NCBI GenBank assembly: GCA_036262055.1
Contig: DATAJP010000001.1
Coordinates: 186,001 to 250,000, forward strand
Reading direction: 5' to 3'
From: Ignavibacteria bacterium
GTDB lineage: Bacteria; Bacteroidota; Ignavibacteria; Tepidaquicellales; Tepidaquicellaceae
DNA: 64,000 bases
Positions 7,355 through 24,759 of the stretch are shown here, piece after piece. A model generated the notes under the pieces. It was given only the letters and a program-made list of their open reading frames with translations, made no database searches and was not told where the DNA came from. Within the stretch, counting starts at the first letter, position 1, and every line of letters begins with the position of its first letter. A program made the translations under genes and the position numbers.

Positions 7355-7441
7355 TTTGTTAAAGATTAGGTAACAAATTCTTAACACGATTGATATAACT
7401 TGAAGAATAAATCTAACTTAAAATTCAAATCACAAGCTAAA

Positions 7442-9127
7442 ATGAAAAAATTATTAACAATTTTATTTTTTGTACTTTTAGTTGCTTCAGGAAGTGCATC
7501 AGCACAACCGGTTGATTCAACTACGCTAAACGCGGCTTCTATTACGGGAACAGTAACATTAAGCAATAGCACTGTCTATATTATGAAAGGTTTTAATTAT
7601 GTAAGAAATGGAGGAAAGATAGTGATAGAGCCGGGAACATTAATTAAAGGTGATAAAGCTACAACAGGAACATTAATAATTGAAAGAGGCGGAAAAATCC
7701 ATGCTAACGGAACTGCAAACCGACCTATTATTTTTACTTCAAGATTCAATCCGGGGCAAAGAAATCCTCAGGATTGGGGTGGAGTCCTTATTTTGGGACG
7801 TTCGGGAATAAATACCTCTTCAGGTGCTGACTCTGCACAGATTGAAGGTTTTCCGGCAGGAACTGCACCATGGTATGGCGGACAACCAAGAATTGATGAC
7901 GATTCATCGGGTGTTTTCAGATATGTAAGAATTGAGTTTGCAGGATACCCGCTTACTCCGGGTAATGAAATCAATGGATTAACCTGCGGTGGTGTCGGAA
8001 GCAAAACACTAATTGAATATGTTCAGATTTCATATTGCGGAGATGATTCATTCGAGTTTTTTGGCGGAACATTAAGTGCAAGATATTTGGTTGCTTTTGG
8101 AACGGTTGATGATGACTTTGATATGGATAACGGTCATAGAGGACATTTGCAATTTGGATTGGCTGTGAGAGACTCAAATCAATCAGACGTATCAGGTTCG
8201 CACTTCTTTGAAATTGATAATAATAATAATAGCCCTGCAAATTTTAATGCACCAAGAACAAAAACAATTTTTTCAAACTTCACCTGCATTGGACCGAAGA
8301 CTGCAAATTCAACTTCAGTTAATCCAAATTTCGTGCGAGGCGCGCACTTAAGAAGAAATATGTTAGCTTCTATTTATAACTCTGTTATGACAGGATATAA
8401 TGTTGGTATCAGATTTGACGGAAGCGGTGTTTTTAATGCGGCAACAGGAGATACAATTCAGGTAAGAAATACTATTTTCTCAGGATTCTCAAACAGATTG
8501 GCGGATACAGCAGGTTCTACTTCATTCTCGCCCTCAGTATGGCTTATGACAGGTTCATATGCTAATCGTGTTTTAACACAACCGACTGATGTTAATTTAA
8601 CTTCACCATATAGTTTCTACGGTATTGCGCCTTCAGACTCTAATGTTTATGGAAATGTTAATTGGTATGTTCCTCAGGCCGGTTCACAGGCATTATCAGG
8701 TTCTGATTTCACAAATCCAAACCTTTCAGGATTTACATCTACCACATATGTTGGAGCATTTGGTTCAGGCAGCACAAGCTGGTTAACAGGTTGGACAAAC
8801 TTCAACCCGAAGGGATATAATCCAAGACCAAATTCCGTTCAACAAATTTCTTCAGTTGTTCCGGGAACGTTTAAGCTTACACAGAACTATCCGAATCCGT
8901 TCAACCCTATAACAACAATTAATTTCTCGGTTCCTGTAAAGGGATTTGTGAGCTTAAAAATATATGATGTAACAGGCAGAATGGTTGCCGATTTGGTTAA
9001 TCAGGAAATGATTGCGGGTGAATATAAATATGATTTCAATGCTTCAAATCTTAATTCTGGAGTTTACTTCTATACATTAAGAGGAAATAACTTCTCAGAG
9101 ACAAAGAAAATGATGCTTATTAAGTAA
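7442..9127 (+). CDS. T9SS-exported protein, partner of the TonB receptor
   Basis: A 561-residue secreted protein. I choose ATG 7442, which gives a clean signal peptide (MKKLLTILFF... cleaved after SASAQ); the upstream in-frame TTG 7400 adds a charged, non-signal extension. The body is Gly/Asn-rich with repeated short beta segments (IEPGTLIKGDK, IIERGGKIHANG, WGGVLILGRSG) suggesting a right-handed beta-helix. The last 80 residues are a T9SS sorting domain (QNYPNPFNP ... GVYFYTLRG ... TKKMMLIK). Proteins of this kind are often encoded next to a TonB receptor in this phylum, which suggests surface binding or processing of the receptor's ligand. Function is unproven. Confidence 0.8.
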   Translation: MKKLLTILFFVLLVASGSASAQPVDSTTLNAASITGTVTLSNSTVYIMKGFNYVRNGGKIVIEPGTLIKGDKATTGTLIIERGGKIHANGTANRPIIFTSRFNPGQRNPQDWGGVLILGRSGINTSSGADSAQIEGFPAGTAPWYGGQPRIDDDSSGVFRYVRIEFAGYPLTPGNEINGLTCGGVGSKTLIEYVQISYCGDDSFEFFGGTLSARYLVAFGTVDDDFDMDNGHRGHLQFGLAVRDSNQSDVSGSHFFEIDNNNNSPANFNAPRTKTIFSNFTCIGPKTANSTSVNPNFVRGAHLRRNMLASIYNSVMTGYNVGIRFDGSGVFNAATGDTIQVRNTIFSGFSNRLADTAGSTSFSPSVWLMTGSYANRVLTQPTDVNLTSPYSFYGIAPSDSNVYGNVNWYVPQAGSQALSGSDFTNPNLSGFTSTTYVGAFGSGSTSWLTGWTNFNPKGYNPRPNSVQQISSVVPGTFKLTQNYPNPFNPITTINFSVPVKGFVSLKIYDVTGRMVADLVNQEMIAGEYKYDFNASNLNSGVYFYTLRGNNFSETKKMMLIK

Positions 9128-9138
9128 GAACCTATTCC

Positions 9139-9169
9139 GAACGCCGGCATCCGCCGGCGTTCTTGTTTT
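9139..9169 (+). terminator. Rho-independent terminator after the T9SS gene
   Basis: A ten-base-pair perfect hairpin (9139-9148 with 9153-9162, four-base loop ATCC) very rich in G+C is followed by TTGTTTT. It lies 11 bases after the stop of the T9SS gene and separates that operon from the RNA gene at 9238. Confidence 0.9.
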
Positions 9170-9203: not shown

Positions 9204-9232
9204 TTCTGTTAAGTTCTTTGTAGTTTTATAAT
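9204..9232 (+). promoter_or_regulatory. Promoter of the tRNA-Ala-like gene
   Basis: A perfect TATAAT at 9227-9232 is preceded, after 17 bases, by a weak -35 TTCTGT at 9204-9209. The first base of the tRNA-like sequence (G 9238) is six bases past the -10, where transcription would be expected to start, so the transcript may begin at the mature 5' end. Confidence 0.6.
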
Positions 9233-9237
9233 CATAT

Positions 9238-9319
9238 GGGGCTATAGCTCAGCAGGTAGAGCGTCCATGCAAACTATATAATTGCAGGAAGGGCAACGGT
9301 TCAATTCCGTTTAGCTCCA
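9238..9319 (+). tRNA. tRNA-Ala-like RNA with enlarged anticodon arm (no assignable anticodon)
   Basis: The sequence folds as a tRNA: acceptor GGGGCTA/TAGCTCC containing the G3-U70 pair that marks alanine tRNAs, discriminator A, T8-A9, D arm GCTC-AGCAGGTA-GAGC with G18G19, five-base variable loop AGGGC, T arm AACGG-TTCAATT-CCGTT. Only the anticodon arm is abnormal: 26 bases instead of 17. It can form TCC-A-TGCAA paired with TTGCA-GGA, eight base pairs with one bulged A, closed by the nine-base loop ACTATATAA. No standard seven-base loop with a sensible anticodon fits. No CCA is encoded, as in the normal tRNA-Ala(GGC) at 24687. It has its own promoter and terminator. It could be a functional tRNA-like RNA or a pseudogene; the intact pairing favours the former. 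Confidence 0.7.
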
Positions 9320-9341
9320 CAAAAATATCATTTCTTTCTTC

Positions 9342-9382
9342 AAAAGCTGTTTCTTAAGATTTTAAGAAACGGCTTTTGTTTA
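9342..9382 (+). terminator. Terminator of the tRNA-Ala-like gene
   Basis: A 16-base-pair stem (9342-9357 with 9362-9377, all pairs formed with one G-T, loop GATT) ends in TTTT and a T-rich tail. It lies 22 bases after the tRNA-like sequence. A-rich flanks let it act on both strands. Confidence 0.8.
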
Positions 9383-24667: not shown

Positions 24668-24686
24668 ATCGAAATATTCGATTTCG

Positions 24687-24759
24687 TGGAGCTAAGCGGG
24701 GTCGAACCGCTGACCTTCTGAATGCCATTCAGACGCTCTACCAACTGAGCTATAGCCCC
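24687..24759 (-). tRNA. tRNA-Ala(GGC)
   Basis: A canonical 73-base cloverleaf: acceptor GGGGCTA/TAGCTCC with the G3-U70 alanine identity pair, D arm GCTC-AGTTGGTA-GAGC, anticodon arm TCTGA-ATGGCAT-TCAGA (anticodon GGC), T arm AGCGG-TTCGACC-CCGCT, discriminator A. CCA is not encoded. It is the normal counterpart of the odd RNA at 9238, with an identical acceptor stem. Confidence 0.96.

Follow-up and report, generated by a model that had tools for sequence, protein, structure and literature searches.

The window, meaning the whole stretch of 64,000 nucleotides that was analysed (part of G000:C1), carries a tRNA-Ala-like RNA gene at 9238-9319. Like the upstream gene, the terminators and the possible -10 box described below, it lies on the plus strand. 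The gene is 82 nt long, ends on A73 at position 9319, encodes no CCA, and reads GGGGCTA TA GCTC AGCAGGTA GAGC G TCCATGCAAACTATATAATTGCAGGA AGGGC AACGG TTCAATT CCGTT TAGCTCC A. Its score against the Rfam tRNA family RF00005 was 52.8 bits (gathering threshold 29), placing it within that family, and two orthologues scored 51.8 and 44.4 bits. The acceptor stem, D arm, variable loop and T arm are of the tRNA-Ala type, with G3-U70 (G3 in the 5′ acceptor strand, 9238-9244), A73, the D-loop G18G19 and the T loop all intact; the anticodon arm alone departs. ARAGORN detected a tRNA but named it Leu(caa), because a normal arm was forced onto the enlarged one. The whole RNA folded with z = -3.1, and none of 200 shuffles reached equal stability. 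The first-pass annotation, which had described a free-standing tRNA-Ala-like RNA with these body elements, was therefore borne out.

The upstream gene (7400-9127) encodes a protein with a T9SS sorting tail (Por_Secre_tail, PF18962) and is the neighbour of the RNA in all three carrier genomes. Its terminator (9139-9162), which has a counterpart at the same place in both relatives (loci L002 and L021), separates this gene from the RNA. The downstream gene differs, encoding a metallophosphatase in the window and a TonB-plug receptor in both relatives, and cis-control of the downstream gene was rejected on this ground. The RNA is followed by an intrinsic terminator of 17 pairs (9341-9378), where 0.2 terminators would be expected by chance across the stretch; the RNA's own terminator, previously given as 16 pairs, is thus real. 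No comparable terminator was found 3′ of the RNA in L002 or L021, and the dedicated terminator is present only in the window genome. A possible -10 box, TATAAT, lies at 9227-9232, with a spacing that puts base 1 at a plausible distance. The placement of the earlier proposed TATAAT promoter was thus plausible, but no -35 partner was found and sequences and scans showed that the exact box is not kept in L002 or L021. As judged from sequence, it is a weak and unconvincing candidate promoter.

The enlarged anticodon arm and its loop

The anticodon arm (9264-9289) comprises 26 nt instead of the usual 17 (17+9) and forms eight pairs with a bulged A at 9267. Its fold, TCC(A)TGCAA/TTGCAGGA closing the 9-nt loop ACTATATAA (9273-9281), was the same whether the arm was folded by itself or as part of the whole RNA, confirming the arm length, stem and nine-base loop that had been noted before. 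When the arm was folded alone, 7 of 200 shuffles were as stable. The arms of the two relatives, TCCGGAGT-CATATATAA-ATTCGGGA in G003 and TCCTGAAT-CCTATATAA-ACTCAGGA in G017, are 25 nt each with the same loop length. Eight pairs are possible in all three arms, each with one flaw: the bulged A in the window genome (G000), a G-G mismatch in G003 and an A-C mismatch in G017. The energy minimum of the G017 arm has six pairs followed by a 13-nt loop.

In the eight-pair register, the loop is 9 nt in all three copies and follows the pattern nnUAUAUAA, with seven of its nine bases (the last seven, TATATAA) identical across the three genomes. In the three-sequence alignment it is the most constrained part of the arm interior. 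The RNA does not have the five-pair stem, 7-nt loop and NGC anticodon of an elongator tRNA-Ala. In line with the earlier observation of no usable anticodon, none of the three copies has NGC in the loop.

Distribution, covariation and selection

Copies were searched by BLAST in 59 relatives and then in 29 genomes of the family. Two further copies were found, both in the same second genus of the family, at G003:C8:165349-165429 (L002:1501-1581) and G017:C287:1926-2007 (L021:1501-1582). In both genomes the RNA is preceded by the same gene for a T9SS-sorted protein, with that gene's terminator in between, so that the proposed check for the enlarged arm in related genomes returned a conserved arm. 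The RNA was not found elsewhere among the 29 family genomes. With a covariance model of the three sequences, 44 genomes of the order yielded no further long-arm copy at E 1e-18, and the best matches listed for 391 class genomes held none either. About 85,000 species were covered by a pattern scan, which recovered the RNA only in UBA6667 and UBA9002 contigs; these match the G003 and G017 copies (UBA6667 is placed in Ignavibacteria), and no further carrier appeared. Among 20 loci with orthologues of the upstream gene in an unfiltered scan, the RNA was present at three, the three carriers only. Assembly error, sequencing slip or chance was rejected because three genomes agree. A phage or plasmid origin was rejected as well, since no match appeared in phage and plasmid records or virus scans.

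Compensating changes in the added stem, another proposed check, were seen at two arm pairs among the three sequences. C-G is replaced by A-U and A-U by U-A with pairing kept, and one other pair becomes G-U. Acceptor pair 7 also changes on both sides together, from A-U to G-C. No variation was seen among the three copies in G3-U70, in acceptor pairs 1-6, in the D stem or at A73. When the partner columns were slid by 1-3 positions, pairing fell from 97% to 26-53%. The covariation score was reached in 52 of 500 shuffles, which, for three sequences with two from one genus, is suggestive but not strong.

Pairwise identity between carriers is 84-89% for the RNA, against 40%, 41% and 48% for fourfold-degenerate sites in the upstream gene. 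For the flanks of the RNA, alignment was not clearly above shuffles; the exception was the upstream side in the comparison inside the second genus, where the shared terminator lies. Simple decay is therefore unlikely, as the first reading of the sequence had argued, and selection on the RNA is well supported by these comparisons. On the other hand, the RNA changes faster than ordinary tRNA-Ala. The G017 copy has one extra D-loop base and lacks A14, indicating that tRNA tertiary constraint may be loosening in that genome.

The window also holds an ordinary tRNA-Ala(GGC) at 24686-24759, and the same genome has a tRNA-Ala(UGC), which means that alanine codons can be read without the extra gene. 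The GGC gene shares the acceptor stem, D stem, T-arm plan and G3-U70 with the enlarged-arm RNA, but its arm is 17 nt, in contrast to 25-26 nt without an alanine anticodon. Because the G017 stem TCCTGA/TCAGGA resembles the GGC stem TCTGA/TCAGA plus one C-G pair, the RNA probably arose by duplication of tRNA-Ala(GGC) followed by arm growth.

Expected charging and possible functions

The identity elements read by AlaRS (G3-U70 and A73) are kept in all three copies, as had been noted for the window copy, making the RNA a predicted AlaRS substrate at the sequence level. Given that these elements are untouched and that a single AlaRS is present in G000, at G000:C3:738666, and in G003, charging with alanine is expected. 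Anticodon arms are tightly size-limited in tRNAs; in the parts of a review cited here, the canonical stem has 5 bp and the longest natural stem named has 6 bp (PMC7609411). With eight pairs and nine loop bases, the RNA should not read codons. Since the loop is kept although it is not an alanine anticodon, something presumably reads it.

We tentatively favour, at a probability well short of even, a tRNA paralogue that AlaRS can charge but that does not decode, its loop being recognised by a partner which employs or holds the alanine RNA outside codon-directed translation. A tRNA-Ala(GGC) gene would have been duplicated in the ancestor of two Ignavibacteria genera, and the anticodon arm of the duplicate would have gained one base pair and a longer loop before the copy was retained. 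RNase P/Z would trim the transcript, CCA would be added, and the sole AlaRS would charge it via the unchanged acceptor end. The 8-pair stem and 9-nt loop would misfit codon reading, and the invariant loop nnUAUAUAA would act as an address for the partner. By inference, the likeliest partner is a protein that accepts the alanine, or holds on to the RNA, away from the codon-reading path. A narrower version, in which a dedicated alanine-charged tRNA with an 8-pair stem uses its invariant, possibly self-pairing UAUAUAA loop to address an alanine-using enzyme, is less likely. If the favoured explanation is true, a natural tRNA body has been retained for a role other than codon reading, and the partner should be retrievable together with the RNA.

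A search for users of Ala-tRNA (MprF, RqcH and FemAB) and for a second AlaRS revealed no partner gene restricted to carriers. MprF-type LPG synthase is absent. FemAB-like proteins were found in each of the three carriers, with two of the matches falling below the curated cut-off, and non-carriers have them as well. RqcH (NFACT_N) is present in G000 and G003 with its D-R motif region conserved, which would fit an alanine donor for C-terminal alanine tailing on free 50S, where codon reading is unnecessary. However, RqcH is reported to contact anticodon G35 (PMC8373112) and the loop contains no G, making RqcH a poor candidate. Almost every genome lacking the RNA also has RqcH, and the carrier G017, an incomplete genome, gave no match; this role is accordingly very improbable.

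Other explanations dispense with an alanine-using partner. A regulatory RNA built on a tRNA scaffold, with the loop pairing to another RNA, or copy to copy through the self-complementary UAUAUA, and with charging incidental, is a doubtful but serious candidate. The loop consists of two nucleotides, a perfect six-base palindrome and one A, at the same place in 3/3 copies, and its constraint within the arm interior would fit such pairing; moreover, in Bacillus cereus a pseudo-tRNA works as part of a regulatory RNA (PMC3399842). Yet a seed made only of A and U is weak (duplex about -1 to -3 kcal/mol), many sites would match, and such a palindrome occurs in about 15% of random loops of the same composition, so that sequence support for self-pairing is weak. 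Retention of the AlaRS elements and the tRNA body would be left unexplained. A recognisable but dispensable pseudogene, or by-product of recent tRNA duplication, is unlikely: the confinement of the RNA to two genera, its faster change, the stem flaw in each copy and the G017 D-loop change would suit it, but the identity far above that of the neighbour's fourfold sites, together with compensating changes and the invariant loop, argues against it.

Decoding after all would need a 7-nt loop, [C/A]U-AUA-UA, with A.A or C.A as the closing mismatch; anticodon AUA would then place alanine at UAU. Equivalents of U33 and A38 are present in all three copies, and ARAGORN gave the L002 copy the anticodon ata. 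The stem, however, would have 8-9 pairs against the 5 bp norm (PMC7609411), position 37 would be U and not a purine, and tRNA-Tyr(GTA) is present, so that missense at tyrosine codons would result. We regard decoding as improbable. Removal of a small intron, leaving an ordinary tRNA-Ala, is the most remote of these explanations. The extra bases do lie in the arm, the site of tRNA introns in archaea and eukaryotes, but the middle of the loop is conserved, ordinary tRNA-Ala genes exist, and no common excision gives a 7-nt loop with an alanine anticodon in all three copies.

Comparison with known systems and other tRNA-like genes

One related system is tmRNA, which is an AlaRS-charged tRNA-like RNA with a longer helix in place of the anticodon side. 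The 82-nt RNA differs in having a full D arm and no tag reading frame, and its score against the tmRNA family RF00023, 26.5 bits, fell below the 47-bit cut-off. Replacement of tmRNA was rejected, since the genome has its own tmRNA at G000:C3:417531-417892. Natural stems of unusual length are also known among non-canonical tRNAs (tRNA-Pyl, selC* and allo-tRNAs, mt-tRNA-Ser); anticodon stems of 6 bp are found in tRNA-Pyl and mt-tRNA-Ser, an unpaired A being present in one of them (PMC7609411). Those tRNAs decode with 6 bp and a usable anticodon, in contrast to the eight pairs and 9-nt loop without one found here. tRNA-Other of Bacillus cereus is likewise a tRNA-like gene outside translation, proposed to be recruited elsewhere, but it is part of a longer iron-regulated RNA by a genomic island and has not been presented there as an alanine tRNA whose enlarged arm is conserved (PMC3399842). 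No described counterpart of the enlarged-arm tRNA-Ala-like RNA was found in the literature.

When a wide long-arm pattern was run on 395 genomes of the phylum, most of its matches were tRNA-Met read in the wrong register; it also picked up the window and a small number of unrelated genes. One of the latter is a long-arm tRNA-like gene from a different family of the phylum (L176; G425:C47:1493-1553, minus strand), which has a big extra hairpin inside the anticodon arm, where CCTGT...ACAGG encloses a second stem; ARAGORN called it Asp(gtc), and its arm may have become enlarged independently. In two tRNA-like fragments (L179 and L180; G503:C96 and G409:C3), a GTTAT loop is followed by an extra hairpin, CCCGAC..GTCGGG, and the hairpin motif is present more than once in L179. 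An 85-nt tRNA-like gene of Woesearchaeota (L101:1482-1566) matched the loop pattern and is probably a regular archaeal tRNA gene containing an intron.

Among conventional tRNA genes, tRNA-Ala(CGC) was observed in other genera of the family (L013, L015, L028 and L030), with none seen among the tRNAs of the window genome. In bacteria, AUA is mostly decoded by a tRNA whose CAU anticodon is modified, and a tRNA-Ile with anticodon UAU is unusual; one lies just past the window end, at G000:C1:250581-250654 (L075:81-158).
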